DNA from: Sulfoacidibacillus thermotolerans
GTDB taxonomy: Bacteria > Bacillota > Bacilli > Alicyclobacillales > SLC66
DNA length: 41,505 nt
Assembly: GCF_003144315.1 (NCBI RefSeq)
Contig: NZ_MPDK01000025.1
Span: 1-41,505, forward strand
Reading direction: 5' to 3'
The number at the start of each line of letters is the position of its first letter. Within the stretch, counting starts at the first letter, position 1. The position numbers and the translations under genes were made by a program. Positions 33,678 to 39,936 of the stretch are shown here, one piece after another. The notes beneath the pieces were generated by a model, which made no database searches, was not told where the DNA came from, and saw only the letters and a list, made by a program, of their open reading frames with translations.

Positions 33678-33753
33678 GAGCCATTAGCTCAGTCGGTAGA
33701 GCACCTGACTTTTAATCAGGGTGTCGCTGGTTCGAGTCCAGCATGGCTCACCA
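33678..33753 (+). tRNA. tRNA-Lys (anticodon TTT)
   Basis: A 76-nt cloverleaf: acceptor GAGCCAT/ATGGCTC, anticodon stem CCTGA/TCAGG with loop CTTTTAA, T arm GCTGG-TTCGAGT-CCAGC, and an encoded CCA end. The anticodon is at 33711-33713. First of three closely spaced tRNA genes. Confidence 0.97.
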
Positions 33754-33762
33754 GATACGTTT

Positions 33763-33845
33763 GCGGGTGTGGCGGAATTGGCAGACGCACCAGACTTAGG
33801 ATCTGGCGGGTAACCGTGGGGGTTCGAGTCCCTTCACCCGCACCA
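33763..33845 (+). tRNA. tRNA-Leu (anticodon TAG)
   Basis: An 83-nt class II tRNA with acceptor GCGGGTG/CACCCGC, anticodon stem CCAGA/TCTGG around CTTAGGA, a short variable arm (CGGGTAACCG) and an encoded CCA. It reads CUN leucine codons. Confidence 0.97.
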
Positions 33846-33868
33846 TGCAACTCATTTTACTATCTCGA

Positions 33869-33945
33869 CGGAGTTTAGCGCAGTTTGGTAGCGCGCCTGC
33901 CTTGGGAGCAGGAGGTCACAGGTTCAAATCCTGTAACTCCGACCA
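33869..33945 (+). tRNA. tRNA-Pro (anticodon TGG)
   Basis: A 77-nt tRNA with acceptor CGGAGTT/AACTCCG, anticodon stem CCTGC/GCAGG around CTTGGGA, T arm ACAGG-TTCAAAT-CCTGT and an encoded CCA. It borders the island with the tyrosine integrase and is the likely integration target. Confidence 0.97.
33917..33945. other. Candidate attachment site at the tRNA-Pro 3' end
   Basis: The 3' half of the tRNA gene (T arm through CCA) is the usual att core of tRNA-targeting tyrosine integrases, and an integrase gene lies 137 bp away. I found no second copy in the window, so the other end must be beyond 41505. This is inference from position. Confidence 0.35.
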
Positions 33946-34005: not shown

Positions 34006-34082
34006 GTTTGCCGATGATCTAGTTTTGATCTAGTGAACGAGTATGTGATCCAAAATCGTCGATTCTGCTACCATATATACCG

Positions 34083-35287: not shown

Positions 35288-35926
35288 TTATCCGTATGAA
35301 TCGAAAAAAGCGGCGTTTGGCTTTAATTGTCCTCGCACTATTACGAAAGAATGCATACTTGCAAATTCATCATTAACGTAGACATGACAGGACCATGAAC
35401 CTTCAGGAATTTCCCTGGATATTCTTAATGCATTAAAGGATACTTTTTTTCCTTTAAATCTATAAGGGCGTGAGGTAATCCATTGGGTTTGCTTAGCGCT
35501 ACACCATTCAACAGTTACAACAGCTGACATCTCGTTCGAGGATGGGGAAATAAGTTCGAAAGAGAGTATGACCATAGGATTTTCATCAGTGAAAATATTT
35601 GTTAATTCCTCAGCAATTCCTTGAGCATTAACTTTTGTACATAAAACGGACTTGATAAAAATTTGATTACTGATATCTTTTTGAACAGACACAGTCCCAT
35701 ATTCACCATTCTTAAGCAGAAATGATTCATCCGTCCAAGCATCACAAACTCTAAATTTCCCATTCAGTTCAATGGAATAGTAATGAAAAATTTCTGGTGG
35801 TGCAACTTGGTAAATATTTAACCGATCAGTTGGAATACCCTCACAAACTAACTTATTAGAAAATTCATCAAAAATGACCCTGACAGATTCTATTTCAGTT
35901 TTAAGATTTGGAATATAGATTTCCAT
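35288..35926 (-). CDS. Unknown 212-aa island protein
   Basis: I do not recognise this protein. ATG 35926 (MEIYIPNLKTEIESVRVIFD) is chosen because GGTGA lies 7 nt upstream, overlapping the stop of the preceding membrane-protein gene; the same frame continues upstream to 36028, but that stretch would be read inside the other gene. The sequence is rich in beta-strand patterns. The last part, ISREIPEGSWSCHVYVNDEFASMHSFVIV, resembles the closing strands of immunoglobulin-like domains, so an all-beta protein is likely. No signal peptide is seen. It forms a small operon with the two genes upstream. Confidence 0.65.
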   Translation of the reverse strand: MEIYIPNLKTEIESVRVIFDEFSNKLVCEGIPTDRLNIYQVAPPEIFHYYSIELNGKFRVCDAWTDESFLLKNGEYGTVSVQKDISNQIFIKSVLCTKVNAQGIAEELTNIFTDENPMVILSFELISPSSNEMSAVVTVEWCSAKQTQWITSRPYRFKGKKVSFNALRISREIPEGSWSCHVYVNDEFASMHSFVIVRGQLKPNAAFFDSYG

Positions 35927-35933
35927 CTTTGTT

Positions 35934-36116
35934 TCACCAAATTCCCAACAAATGTGTTTCAAATACGATCCAACCGATTGAAATTCCGTACCACAATGAT
36001 TTTGATGCGTCGGTTTTGTCAGTTCCAAAAAATTTGACTAATAACCAAGTACCTATTTTAATTGCAATGTATCCAACAATCGTGGATACTGATGATACAA
36101 CGATTAACCGAAGCAA
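35934..36116 (-). CDS. Small membrane protein, 60 aa
   Basis: TTG 36116 follows GGGGGGAG at a good distance. The product MLRLIVVSSVSTIVGYIAIK... has two hydrophobic segments, about residues 3-29 and 43-58, separated by a charged loop (GTDKTDASKS). Its TGA overlaps the ribosome binding site of the 212-aa gene, so the two are probably translationally coupled. The family is unknown. Confidence 0.5.
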   Translation of the reverse strand: MLRLIVVSSVSTIVGYIAIKIGTWLLVKFFGTDKTDASKSLWYGISIGWIVFETHLLGIW

Positions 36117-36131: not shown

Positions 36132-36520
36132 AGGGCACGTAAGTTAGTGTAAAACTAATTACCCCACCATCCCATATTTTGTCCGAAATGGTCGATAAAA
36201 TCACCCGCATATGCTAAAGTTGCTGCTCCAACTGCTGCTGCCGCCGCTGCAGGAGCAGCATAGGCGACAACACCTGCTCCTACTTCTCCAACTGCAGCAG
36301 TACCCCCATCAATAACTGCCGCATCAAAAACTCCTGCTTTATTAGCTGTATTAATTGAACTTGCTATTTTTCCACCACCAGTAACGGCAGCAGCAATACC
36401 GCTAGCAACACTTACAGAATCACGATTGGTTTGATTAAATGCCTTTACTGTAGCACTCCACCAACTCATTTTCTTATCAACTCCAATCAAAATGTATTAT
36501 AAACCAATCCTACGTGCCCT
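36132..36520. repeat. Inverted 10-mers flanking the 104-aa gene
   Basis: AGGGCACGTA (36132-36141) and its exact complement TACGTGCCCT (36511-36520) lie on either side of the Ala/Gly-rich gene. The right copy falls between possible promoter elements of that gene (TATAAT on the minus strand just downstream), the left copy just before the membrane-protein gene. They may be operators or a cassette boundary. Confidence 0.4.
36155..36469 (-). CDS. Ala/Gly-rich 104-aa protein, unknown
   Basis: From ATG 36469 (MSWWSATVKAFNQTNRDSV), with TTGGAG upstream. The middle and C-terminal parts are strongly Ala/Gly/Val-rich: GIAAAVTGGGKIASS, then GEVGAGVVAYAAPAAAAAAVGAATLAYAG at about residues 67-95, ending DHFGQNMGWWGN. 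The long small-residue helix could insert into membranes, as in holins or hydrophobic bacteriocin-like peptides. I see no leader peptide or Gly-Gly processing site with immunity gene, so function stays open. TTG 36490 would add seven residues. Confidence 0.5.
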   Translation of the reverse strand: MSWWSATVKAFNQTNRDSVSVASGIAAAVTGGGKIASSINTANKAGVFDAAVIDGGTAAVGEVGAGVVAYAAPAAAAAAVGAATLAYAGDFIDHFGQNMGWWGN

Positions 36521-36640: not shown

Positions 36641-36738
36641 CGACGTGGCAGAATGAGATGTGGGTGCACTCGGGGTGGCCGAATGCCGGGGCCTCGAAGT
36701 GCGCCCACATCTCACCGCAGGGGATTCTGTCCACGTCG
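36641..36738. repeat. GC-rich 98-nt hairpin upstream of the Rep-helicase
   Basis: Nested complementary blocks pair in order: CGACGTGG (36641-36648) with CCACGTCG (36731-36738); CAGAAT (36649-36654) with ATTCTG (36724-36729); GAGATGTGGG (36655-36664) with CCCACATCTC (36704-36713); GCACT (36666-36670) with AGTGC (36698-36702). That is 29 base pairs, with one 10-nt bulge on the right arm. It is a GC-rich island in an AT-rich 476-bp gap (36470-36945) that contains no convincing gene. It may be a replication origin or transposon-end structure for the Rep protein. A minus-strand open frame with GC-rich third positions also crosses it, so decayed coding DNA is possible. Confidence 0.6.
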
Positions 36739-36945
36739 GGGGCGCTAACTTGTTAAAAGCCAGAGTGGAACACGTCGGCCTAGATTAAAATTAAACAACC
36801 CGTAAACATTTTAATGCAAAACGCAAAAATCAGGTTGTGTTGACCGTGTAACTATTGAGAAAGCAAAAACCATAAAAGTAAAAGTATTCTTGCATTGATT
36901 TTTATTACACTCAAAACACCTATAGAGTGAAGGAGGTGTACAAAT

Positions 36946-39936
36946 ATGTACGAGGTGCAAGGCGTTCATGAGGATGATAGAATCAAAGAAATGAATCGCA
37001 TGGGTAAAATTGATGAGTATGCGTATGAATATGCTTGTCGTCCTCGTGCGCTGGCGTTTTTGAATGTACAGAAAAAATATGGTGCGATTGTAGATAGCCA
37101 TTGCCATAGTATCTTTTGTCCGGTTCATGGTGGCGAAGAACGTGCAGAAATTGCAAAAAACATTACGATGTATGCGAATATGTATCATTTGTATGAGTTT
37201 GTGACACTTACCCATTCGTCAGACTTAAAATCTCCAGAAGAAGCAGAACGAGCGTATGATGAGCTAAAGGAACATTTTCAAGCTGTTGTGGAACAGATGA
37301 AGAATCTGAAATTTTCATATTACCTTGGAAGAAAAAGGTTTCGTGATAAGAATGCGAAAAAGACGGATGAGCAATATTATCTAAAGTGGTTACGGTGGAT
37401 CGATCAAGTCATCAGATATGAGTATATCACGAACTTTCGACGTGTAGCACGTTCAGCGATTGCGTTTGCAATTCATAAGCGTCGTCTGATTTTGGATGTA
37501 CAAGCTGCCTATGCAGAGGTAGATGCTTTTTTAGATGAGAGTTATCAAAACGAGACGGCTCCTGATGTGATTGTAAACCAATTACGAGAGCGGTATGCGT
37601 ACTTAAAAGGCTATAAAAAGTTGGGGGAAGCGCTGGAAAACGTTCGTTTTAAGGTTGCTGATTATTTTTCACGTCTGAGTGATTATGACGAGTATAAATT
37701 TCCTTCTTCTAGTTCAGCGATTTCTCGTTATGTGATGAATGATCTGATTTTAGCTCACAACGAGAACAAAGAAGGGGTGCGTGCTTTAGAAATTGAGAAC
37801 GAGACAAAAAATCATGTCAACGAGAAGATCACGAAATTCGCTTATATTGGCACGTGGGAAGTGGGAAAAGGCGGTCATTTGCACGTGCATGCGCTCGTTA
37901 ATTACCCTGTGTTCTCTTATTTTATTGAGAAATCTAGGTTTTCTGGTGAAACGATGCAAGTGTATGATGTGAAAAGCGTGAACCGTTCTGATGCAAACGC
38001 ACTCTCTGATTATATGGTGAAGTTGGGGCAATATCAGGCGAAAACCGACATAGAGGATATTCAGCGTCTCGCTTCGATCGGCATTTTTGGTCATCGTCAT
38101 ACCGAAAAAGGGGTTGTTAGGGGGAAGTCTGTGTATTTCGTTTCGGATAACGAGATCAAAGTGCACGCCTTCCACAGAATTAAAAAACAGAGTGGATTTG
38201 TTTTTGCGGGGTTCACCAAACGTCGAAATATCATAGATAGGATTGGCAATGTTCGTGGGATAGATGTAGAGAGTGAGACGCCCGTTCTCTCCCGCATGAT
38301 TGACCGCGGTGCTAGTGAAATAGAAATAAAGATGCAATTTAGAGAAGAAGTGGATTCGATTACAGAGAGTTATACTCTTTGGCTTTCCCAAAATGAGAAA
38401 GCCAAAGAAATTTGGAAACAGGTTTTGGAGGAATATGAGGATGCTTTCTTTAAAGACATGTGTGAAACTGCGTATACGCATCTTACAAAAGAACAACTTT
38501 TTTTTGCTTTGCGAGAAACGCAATATGTAGAGTTCATTAAACGTTATGCCGCCTATCGCGCTGGCTTAGATTGGACGTGGTATGCATATTTCTCTGAAGA
38601 GGGGTTTAAAGAGGGCAAAGAGGTTGCGGGAGTTGAATATCTTTCAGGACGATATGATCATGTACCCAAGATAACTAATGAGCAATTGAAAATCATGAAC
38701 GATGCGCTTTTCCATTCAGAAATTGTGGTGAAGGCAGATGCTGGTTCTGGAAAGACTTTCACGCTAGTTAACTTTCTTAACTATACGCCTTTTGACCCTA
38801 AAAAGGTTGCAGTTCTTTCATATACAGCGTCTGTTGCCCAAAAACTACGTAGTGAGTTGGATGCGCGGTATAGTCAATCCGTTCAAACGGTAGATGCTTT
38901 TTTGGGGATGCGCCGCCGTGCTAGAAAAACAGTCTATGCTCATAATTTTCATAACGTTGCTTCAGAGATTGAATTGGTGATTATCGACGAATACGAACGT
39001 TTGACTCCTGATAAAAAGGCACTTCTTTATATGAGTTTGCCCGAAGATGTCCGGATTTTAAACTTTGGGGATACAAATCAGATTGGCGCATTTGGTCATA
39101 AATTTGGTGCTTTGGAAAACTTACCGGGTGTGGAATTGTTTTTTCTGACTAAGAATTTTCGTGTTCGCAAGGGGTTTAAAAATCACGGAGAAGACTTTGT
39201 CAAAGATTTTGAGGATCGCAAGGATGAGATTGTACAAGCTGTGTTATCTGGCACAAAAGTACTTGTCAATGTACACAAAATCCGCCGTCTGGTAAATCAA
39301 TGGGTTTTGGAAGAGTTAGATCGCACAGGCAAGCGTGGAATCAATAGAATTCGTGTTGGCGGTTATATTTTTGCAGAGGGTGATCAAGTTGTAATTAAGC
39401 GAAATCGCAAACACAATGATGACGAAAGGTTCAATTCTTTGAATGGTGAAGAAGGTACAATGAAAGTATTTATGGGGGGGCGCGTTCAATATGCGCCGTT
39501 TGTCAATGAGTATTATGATGAGGCAATGATTGCTGTAGAGTTGTCAAATGGAAAAGGAATTCGCCTTTTTCGGCATTCTGAGCTACTTCGATACACGGAT
39601 ACAATCCAACATGCATATGCAATCACGATACAATCAAGTCAAGGCAAGGAGTATGAGAATGGAATGGTGTTGTTGGCTCGTACACAGAAAAAAGAGCGAA
39701 ACAAATATTTTGCTAGTCAAGAAATGTATTATACAGCTATAAGTCGTGCTCGTTCATCGGTAAAGGTGATTACAAATTTGCTAGAAGGTGAGTTTGAGGA
39801 ATATACAGGAAAAAGCTCAAGCTATGATTATTTGGATGATCGCACGTTAAACGAAAAAGATTTCCATTCTGACCATGCCGTCTTGATTCGTACCATTCGT
39901 TATATTGCGAGAGAAAAATTCGCAACTGTTGTATGA
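36946..39936 (+). CDS. HUH Rep endonuclease fused to SF1 helicase
   Basis: This 996-aa protein combines two activities. Residues about 50-365 are a rolling-circle Rep nuclease: a zinc-finger-like HCHSIFCPVH (C53, C58, H61), motif 1 FVTLT (85-89), motif 2 GHLHVHALVNYP with the HUH pair H313/H315, and motif 3 DYMVK with candidate nucleophile Y356 and K359. Motifs 1 and 2 are 225 residues apart, much more than usual, because of a helical insertion. Residues about 570-945 are a superfamily 1 helicase: Walker A ADAGSGKT (K603), Walker B VIIDEYE, motif III GDTNQ (708-712), NFR (737-739), TIQSSQGKEYE (894-904) and YTAISRARS (929-937). ATG 36946 has AAGGAGGTG upstream. The product should nick, covalently bind and unwind DNA. 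The same pairing occurs in Helitrons and, with another order of relatives, in relaxase-helicases. All key residues are intact. Confidence 0.85.
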   Translation: MYEVQGVHEDDRIKEMNRMGKIDEYAYEYACRPRALAFLNVQKKYGAIVDSHCHSIFCPVHGGEERAEIAKNITMYANMYHLYEFVTLTHSSDLKSPEEAERAYDELKEHFQAVVEQMKNLKFSYYLGRKRFRDKNAKKTDEQYYLKWLRWIDQVIRYEYITNFRRVARSAIAFAIHKRRLILDVQAAYAEVDAFLDESYQNETAPDVIVNQLRERYAYLKGYKKLGEALENVRFKVADYFSRLSDYDEYKFPSSSSAISRYVMNDLILAHNENKEGVRALEIENETKNHVNEKITKFAYIGTWEVGKGGHLHVHALVNYPVFSYFIEKSRFSGETMQVYDVKSVNRSDANALSDYMVKLGQYQAKTDIEDIQRLASIGIFGHRHTEKGVVRGKSVYFVSDNEIKVHAFHRIKKQSGFVFAGFTKRRNIIDRIGNVRGIDVESETPVLSRMIDRGASEIEIKMQFREEVDSITESYTLWLSQNEKAKEIWKQVLEEYEDAFFKDMCETAYTHLTKEQLFFALRETQYVEFIKRYAAYRAGLDWTWYAYFSEEGFKEGKEVAGVEYLSGRYDHVPKITNEQLKIMNDALFHSEIVVKADAGSGKTFTLVNFLNYTPFDPKKVAVLSYTASVAQKLRSELDARYSQSVQTVDAFLGMRRRARKTVYAHNFHNVASEIELVIIDEYERLTPDKKALLYMSLPEDVRILNFGDTNQIGAFGHKFGALENLPGVELFFLTKNFRVRKGFKNHGEDFVKDFEDRKDEIVQAVLSGTKVLVNVHKIRRLVNQWVLEELDRTGKRGINRIRVGGYIFAEGDQVVIKRNRKHNDDERFNSLNGEEGTMKVFMGGRVQYAPFVNEYYDEAMIAVELSNGKGIRLFRHSELLRYTDTIQHAYAITIQSSQGKEYENGMVLLARTQKKERNKYFASQEMYYTAISRARSSVKVITNLLEGEFEEYTGKSSSYDYLDDRTLNEKDFHSDHAVLIRTIRYIAREKFATVV

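Follow-up and report, generated by a model that had tools for sequence, protein, structure and literature searches.

The window analysed here is the whole stretch of 41,505 nucleotides of contig NZ_MPDK01000025.1 from Sulfoacidibacillus thermotolerans, and near its right end it encodes a 996-amino-acid (aa) protein in which a predicted HUH-type rolling-circle nuclease is followed by a superfamily 1 (SF1) helicase. This one protein probably both nicks DNA for rolling-circle copying and unwinds it. We consider it likely that the fusion initiates the rolling-circle replication of an integrative element that works like the actinomycete integrative and conjugative element (AICE) type or the Gram-positive integrative and mobilizable element (IME) type (integrase, Rep and FtsK-like translocase); perhaps it is also the transfer initiator of that element. 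We base this reading on a motif order common to all five fusions, kinship to stand-alone initiators, cysteine spacing of the Rep_1 kind, a plasmid homologue, FtsK genes near two relatives and the integrase in the window. Rep-SF1 fusions are a rare domain combination, and five distinct ones are known here, all from Bacillota: the window protein, those of genomes G017, G387 and G420, and that of plasmid pA38H1.

Domain and motif composition of the fusion protein

The gene is a single open reading frame (ORF) from ATG to TGA, with AAGGAGGTG ahead of the start codon (coordinates are collected in Table 1). The initial annotation had read it as one chain with a zinc-finger-like CxxxxCPxH, a TLT motif 1, an HUH motif, a YxxK motif and an SF1 helicase, and the ORF, the motifs and Pfam all confirm this description. 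Pfam PF23343 (REP_ORF2-G2P) matched residues 286-359 (E-value 5.7e-6) with 27.0 bits (cut-off 27.8), and with 28.1 bits when the protein was scanned together with its neighbours. SF1 families exceeded their cut-offs at residues 577-945 (AAA_19, 2.5e-12; AAA_30, 6.8e-11; Viral_helicase1, 7.6e-10; UvrD-helicase, 1.9e-6), and the Walker A motif lies at residues 600-604. Membership among SF3 helicases found no support, since the families above cut-off in this region are of SF1 type. PHROGs returned Dda-like helicase and exonuclease V, and NCBIfam returned RecD2 and RecD far below their equivalog cut-offs. Among the profiles named for comparison in the initial annotation (Rep_1, Helitron and TrwC), Rep_1 (PF01446) and the TrwC relaxase gave no Pfam match at E-values up to 1, leaving PF23343 near its cut-off and the SF1 families above theirs. 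A phmmer search of the protein against solved structures returned 4 rows, none of them significant (RecD-type chains at 0.1, 0.53 and 0.54; a Mediator subunit at 0.32).

In the alignment of the five fusions, T87, T89, H313, H315 and the core helicase residues are invariant; lack of conservation of these histidines and of Y356 had been put forward as grounds for rejecting the HUH assignment. All five proteins present the motifs in the same order: C-x21-C-x4-C-x2-[CH], motif 1, HUH, tyrosine and Walker A, with motif 1 beginning 32 or 33 residues past the second Cys. The zinc motif recognized initially (C53-x4-C58-x2-H61) is therefore only part of the pattern, and the upstream C31 had been overlooked. 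The distance from the start of motif 1 to HUH (228 residues in the window protein, initially given as about 225) had been called unusual, which holds against stand-alone initiators. HUH lies 48-61 residues past motif 1 in 19 stand-alone proteins (two of which give an extra chance match to the motif pattern in this measurement) and 154-228 residues past it in the five fusions, so a large gap is a trait common to the fusions. The stand-alone set comprised 19 of 22 loci; L038, L039 and L040 were dropped because the motif filter found nothing there.

Two tyrosines follow HUH in every fusion, the first of them 43-86 residues past it; they stand 7 residues apart in four proteins and 4 apart in G420. 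The second is followed by xxK in 5/5 fusions and the first in 4/5. The YxxK at Y356 that had been proposed as the nucleophile motif is present, and a second one at Y363, passed over at first, is conserved at least as well (Y363/K366). Alignments disagree on which G387 tyrosine matches Y356, so either Y356 or Y363 may be the nucleophile.

Among the stand-alone proteins, those of Rep_1 type (for one of the five, a match at 1e-87 confirmed Rep_1 membership) have the fusion-type Cys spacing in four cases, and the fifth has one extra residue. The C-x21-C-x4-C-x2-[CH] pattern was absent from all 14 REP_ORF2-G2P-type proteins, which carry two tyrosines 4 apart (8/14) or a single tyrosine (6/14). The earlier view that the protein resembles Rep_1 rather than TrwC thus stands for the Cys spacing and the lack of a TrwC match, and falls short in the PF01446 search. 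A profile of four fusions found six stand-alone initiators at E-values ≤ 0.0022 (best 3.3e-6), and when the profile of the five fusions was compared with that of the 19 stand-alone proteins, the probability was 95.3% and the single-comparison E-value 2.3e-8, across 89 columns that include HUH and motif 3. These matches argue for a relationship between the nuclease part of the fusions and stand-alone rolling-circle initiators.

RecD2 was the best NCBIfam helicase match in all five fusions, with 49.9 bits for the window protein, 55.3 for G017, 215.8 for pA38H1, 206 for G387 and 168.9 for G420; none reached the 500-bit cut-off of the equivalog (TIGR01448). As judged from these profile scores, the fused domain is a RecD2-like helicase domain and not RecD2 itself. 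The Pfam PIF1 model scored above its cut-off in two of the five (pA38H1 and G387) and below it in G420, and was unlisted for the window protein and G017; NCBIfam also gave weak TraI and TraA matches in the helicase part. SF1B helicases of RecD2-like type, like TraI, run 5' to 3', and PcrA runs 3' to 5'. Because HUH enzymes remain attached to the 5' end of the strand they cut, the fused helicase would travel along the displaced strand.

Distribution of the fusions

The window fusion is present twice in its own genome, in identical copies. A family-level search of 18 genomes matched four: the own genome, G017 over the full length, and two others in the helicase part only. G017 is a metagenome-assembled genome of a second species of the same genus (record JAKACV010000002.1, Bacillota bacterium WH4.bin32; fusion frame 991), and its protein is 70% identical to that of the window over the whole length, without stops. 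At class level (398 genomes), a two-row alignment matched three genomes (own, G017 and G387, the last with a fusion of 891 aa). A four-row nuclease alignment (A6) matched 3/59 genomes at order level (own, G017 and G387) and 3/398 at phylum level (own, G420 with a 918-aa fusion, and G496). The G496 protein (L145 952-2376, minus strand) has 474 aa, HUH with a long stretch ahead of it and no helicase seen; it is a possible intermediate between stand-alone and fused forms.

Three plasmid records matched the window protein. One of them, pA38H1 of Sporosarcina sp. ANT_H38, is a circular plasmid of 6,116 bp whose 784-aa fusion is annotated as 'AAA family ATPase'. This is probably the replication gene of the plasmid, because the other genes scanned (three of the six were scanned, the three small ones were not) hold no replication family. 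The plasmid is typed as non-mobilizable, and its list of six genes, which may be incomplete, names no transfer gene. In the pMESIL02 protein, another of the three, nuclease motifs were absent by eye and the nuclease profile was negative too. Acetobacter pGR7 (2,446 bp) was left out of the count of fusions because its record carries the helicase end alone, without space for a full nuclease.

The nuclease part of pA38H1 matched only itself among 72,556 plasmid records, and that of G420 alone found the pA38H1 nuclease at 4e-11 over 89%. Among the best 50 of 715 plasmid matches of the whole pA38H1 protein, only itself covers at least 80%; the plasmid AAA ATPases of B. velezensis and Butyrivibrio, which reach furthest to the left among those listed, were negative with the nuclease profile. 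The window protein had no match in phage records, the best 15 of 250 phage matches of the pA38H1 protein all begin at residue 337 or later, and six phage records matching that protein were negative with the nuclease profile. Pattern scans of genome contigs returned 0 loci and then 1, in the same record as G017. Scans of viral contigs returned 0, 0, 0 and then 72 loci matching the helicase part, where the nuclease profile was negative in ORFs of at least 120 aa.

PF23343 occurs in 35 of the 398 class genomes, 22 of them above cut-off. The model exceeds its cut-off at 24 places, of which 22 fall within frames of 124-318 aa and 2 are the fusion copies of the own genome. The pA38H1 fusion also scores above the cut-off (28.4 bits), and G017 (22.9 / 26.2), G387 (11.2) and G420 (15.5) score below it. 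Two weak rows far below cut-off sit in longer frames, one of 542 aa in which HUH was absent by eye and another of 699 aa.

Genomic island and candidate origin

The initial annotation had proposed that the protein could be the replication engine of an integrative element, and this is supported as likely by the tyrosine integrase encoded upstream of the fusion, by the FtsK genes downstream of it in two relatives and by the plasmid homologue. An FtsK_SpoIIIE gene follows the fusion on the same strand in G017 (1.1e-19, at 2.9 kb, beyond small ORFs) and in G387 (1.9e-13, at 3.0 kb). The survey of homologues for conserved neighbours that the initial annotation had suggested thus yielded these FtsK neighbours. 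Integrase and fusion occur together in the window, and fusion and FtsK in G017 and G387. Two Bacilli loci (L031 and L037) carry stand-alone REP_ORF2-G2P initiators between an integrase and an FtsK gene, and one of these initiators weakly matches RepSA of pSAM2 (1.6e-6, below its cut-off); the two cassettes resemble AICE-type elements outside Actinobacteria. An 'SSB-like' label for small ORFs beside the fusions was dropped, as G017 and G387 gave no match and G017 and G420 matched at 26% over 49 residues (E-value 0.005).

The hairpin noted earlier between integrase and fusion gene is real by folding (a 110-base window at -69.8 kcal/mol, z -6.6) and has a homologue in the same place in G017. Between the two hairpins, both partners differ in 7/43 predicted pairs and can still pair, and the tip is similar; such compensatory changes across two sequences are weak support for the structure. 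The 24-base identical block to its right is common to the window and G017. In the other loci scanned, the best matches to the block at 36739-36775 had at least 6 mismatches of 23, so it is not common to them. The best windows upstream of the fusion gene had z-scores of -2.9 in G017, -2.8 in G387, -9.8 in G420 and -5.2 in pA38H1 (each of these, like the z-score of the hairpin in the window, is for the best of many windows against simple base shuffles, uncorrected); that of pA38H1 is modest in energy (-31.3 kcal/mol) and lies inside an annotated small gene. Apart from tRNAs, Rfam gave nothing above its gathering score, and the sub-threshold rows at the G017 hairpin do not rise above chance. The hairpin region is a likely origin; alternatively, it may be a regulatory RNA.

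Two near-identical segments of 6.6 kb are present in the assembly, one in contig C54 (33675-40305 of the window) and one in contig C81 (L003 11181-17811), with one mismatch at 34060. Both begin at tRNA-Lys, 3.3 kb ahead of the fusion gene, and run into the same IS256-family copy. A close match to the island tRNA-Pro occurs once each in G016 and G017, within the series Trp-His-Gln-Lys-Leu-Pro, which is the C81 context; G016 also has purA followed by tRNA-Lys-Glu-Val-Asp and walR. The C54 copy therefore begins at the tRNA-Lys gene that is found in both contexts. Because the contig-end overlap is 71 bases and the tRNA 76 bases, the repeat may stem from recombination at the tRNA or from an erroneous join in the assembly. 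It is possibly a recent duplication or an assembly artefact, and we do not treat the second copy as demonstrating mobility.

At the place of the tRNA-Lys-Glu-Val-Asp and walR group of G016, G017 (L023 7822-14127) has the FtsK side of its element ahead of tRNA-Asp and walR. Elsewhere in G017 (L150, contig C105), a short piece that by eye resembles the end of the integrase gene lies behind tRNA-Pro and is followed by unrelated DNA. The insertion site thus seems to have been used in G017 too, and the piece may be what is left of a previous insertion there. The contig with tRNA-Ala-Asp and walR was considered as linked to the island and rejected, as the preceding 18 kb hold ordinary genes.

Proposed function and alternatives

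If the fusion is the initiator of an AICE- or IME-like element, the integrase would first excise the element, and the zinc and HUH region would bind an origin close to the hairpin that precedes the fusion gene. Either Y356 or Y363 would nick the DNA and become joined to the 5' end, the fused RecD-like helicase would run 5' to 3' on the nicked strand and unwind the duplex, and the second tyrosine would close the displaced strand. With its own helicase, the element would not need to recruit host PcrA. The same reaction could supply a strand to transfer machinery.

Several results weigh against this proposal. None of the loci read combines integrase, fusion and FtsK. With a profile built from three integrases, no integrase was found beside the fusion in G017 (20 kb), G387 (39 kb) or G420 (12.3 kb), nor on pA38H1, and a profile of four FtsK proteins found none in G420 (12.3 kb) or on pA38H1. 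The own genome has just a 27% match to the G017 FtsK protein, far from the island. Neither an attachment repeat nor a right end was found for the element, and the tRNA-Pro end, when searched for a further copy, matched the two tRNA genes alone. The contig ends inside the IS256-family copy and so lacks the right side of the island. Searched against solved structures, nuclease profile A6 gave a single row, a viral-type replication-associated protein at an E-value of 0.91, and AlphaFold2 with two-row alignments (window protein and L024) gave no usable model of the fold (mean pLDDT 32.2 for the whole protein and 35.6 for residues 39-420).

The same domains would also suit a conjugative relaxase-helicase of MOBF kind (TrwC/TraI), with strand transfer as its main task rather than replication. 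Such an enzyme would likewise combine an HUH nuclease with an SF1B helicase and two tyrosines, and the weak TraI/TraA matches and the FtsK-type genes near two relatives fit it. MOBF relaxases have their catalytic tyrosine ahead of HUH, however, and in all five fusions the tyrosines come after it, as in Rep proteins. With the Rep_1-like Cys spacing, the negative TrwC search and the mobility typing and gene list of pA38H1 described above also speaking against it, we regard this explanation as unlikely.

A prokaryotic Helitron-like transposase, which would move the element by rolling-circle transposition and which the initial annotation had offered as its other candidate, now appears hardly credible. 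The nuclease-helicase order is that described for Helitron RepHel (PMC6213432), a hairpin lies close to the gene and the assembly holds two near-identical copies. Yet RecD2 is the best helicase match throughout, a tyrosine integrase stands beside the fusion, the identity of the copies starts at a tRNA gene well ahead of the fusion gene, and one homologue is encoded on a plasmid. The position of the hairpin, ahead of the gene, also differs from that in Helraiser, described as near the 3' end (PMC4778049), in contigs that lack the right end of the present element. A decayed or accidental fusion that does not function as one enzyme would account for the low RecD2 score of the window helicase, which is far under those of the three distant members (168.9-215.8 bits). 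Retention of the catalytic motifs, a stop-free counterpart in a second species with 70% identity from end to end, and a domain order common to five divergent proteins, of which one is plasmid-borne, make decay very improbable.

Comparison with known initiators

Rep_1 plasmid initiators (pC194/pUB110, PF01446) share with the fusions the C-x21-C-x4-C-x2-C spacing, an FLTLT motif 1, HUH and YxxK in the same order, but have frames of 282-321 aa, no helicase and 58 residues between motif 1 and HUH (Rep_1 and Rep_2 initiators are treated in PMC5714925). REP_ORF2-G2P is the best Pfam match of the fusion nuclease, and some of its members lie in the integrase-Rep-FtsK cassettes of Bacilli noted above; unlike the fusions, these proteins have short frames (124-318 aa), tyrosines 4 apart and no zinc pattern. 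AICEs of Actinobacteria (pSAM2 type) are defined in PMC3218068 by an integrase, a rolling-circle Rep and an FtsK/SpoIIIE-type translocase, and the same account has RepSA replication use host-encoded replication proteins, helicase included. Counterparts of all three components occur among the loci read here, though never the full set with a fusion in one locus; the present system differs in its fused helicase and its Bacillota host.

CRESS-type plasmid Reps (pCRESS1-9) also join nuclease and helicase in bacterial replicons, but their helicase is of SF3 type (PMC6668415) and that of the fusions SF1B and RecD2-like. Helitron RepHel has a two-tyrosine HUH nuclease followed by an SF1 helicase of the Pif1 family (PMC6213432), whereas the fusions are RecD2-like and lie on an integrase-bearing island or a plasmid. 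Helitron-type ends were not found here; no search was aimed at them, and the right end of the element is missing from the contigs.

Bacterial rolling-circle initiators are understood to depend on a host helicase. A 2018 analysis gives all prokaryotic two-tyrosine initiators then known as lacking a helicase (PMC6213432), and the bacterial nuclease-helicase initiators found in a 2019 network study are described there as SF3 fusions (PMC6668415). Literature judged by titles and abstract starts (most subscription papers being outside its scope) contained no prokaryotic Rep with an SF1 helicase beyond conjugative relaxases. The five fusions look like exceptions to the helicase-less rule for prokaryotic two-tyrosine initiators: nuclease and SF1 helicase in one initiator are rare in bacteria and better known from eukaryotic Helitrons and conjugation enzymes. 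Heringer and Kuhn (2022) reportedly proposed a RepHel-bearing prokaryotic plasmid as the Helitron ancestor. We put forward, as a speculative idea that is probably wrong in part or whole, that the fusions form a prokaryotic lineage apart, in which two-tyrosine initiators on Bacillota plasmids and integrative elements bring an SF1 helicase of their own, and would be living examples of that kind of replicon, that the fusion arose once together with the large insertion between motif 1 and HUH, and that the element copies and transfers without a host helicase. The Rep-SF1 family would make two questions testable: whether such a replicon can do without PcrA and is therefore less restricted in its hosts, and whether bacteria can use a nuclease-helicase initiator like the proposed Helitron ancestor.

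Sequence features and other genes in the window

Table 1. Positions of the fusion gene, its motifs and the surrounding island features in the window
Feature	Positions	Strand	Basis
Rep-helicase fusion, 996 aa	36946..39936	+	ORF, Pfam, NCBIfam, homologues
Predicted zinc site C31, C53, C58, H61 (C-x21-C-x4-C-x2-[CH])	37036..37128	+	Spacing in 5/5 fusions; metal binding putative
Motif 1, F85-V-T-L-T89	37198..37212	+	ORF translation, fusion alignment
HUH motif H313-V-H315	37882..37890	+	Both His invariant in 5/5 fusions; PF23343 match 286-359
Two YxxK motifs, Y356xxK359 and Y363xxK366	38011..38043	+	Two Tyr after HUH in 5/5 fusions
SF1B (RecD2-like) helicase, about residues 577-945	38674..39780	+	Pfam, PHROGs, NCBIfam
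Long G+C-rich hairpin, candidate origin / nick region (putative role)	36641..36738	+	Folding; homologous hairpin in G017
Conserved block beside hairpin, 24 identical bases then a run of 11	36739..36775	+	Window vs L023
Tyrosine integrase, 378 aa	34083..35219	-	Phage_integrase 4.1e-23 (Pfam)
tRNA-Lys, tRNA-Leu, tRNA-Pro, left island edge	33678..33945	+	tRNA search
IS256-family transposase, 338 aa	40461..41477	-	Pfam, NCBIfam

The IS256-family ORF reaches only position 338 of a Pfam model that has 379 positions and is probably truncated or frameshifted. To the left of the tRNA genes lie purA and then the chromosomal origin region (296-33612 with purA included), with dnaB, rplI, ychF, a ParA-type gene, mnmG, gyrB and gyrA; GC skew changes sign near 6-7 kb of the window, about 27 kb from the island. 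Between integrase and hairpin, both on the minus strand, are a 246-aa ORF (35288-36028) with no family above any cut-off and a 111-aa Ala/Gly-rich ORF (36155-36490) without a Pfam match. An apparent broken relative of the 111-aa ORF, joined to an IS end, is found at the start of contig C73 (L020 3-398).

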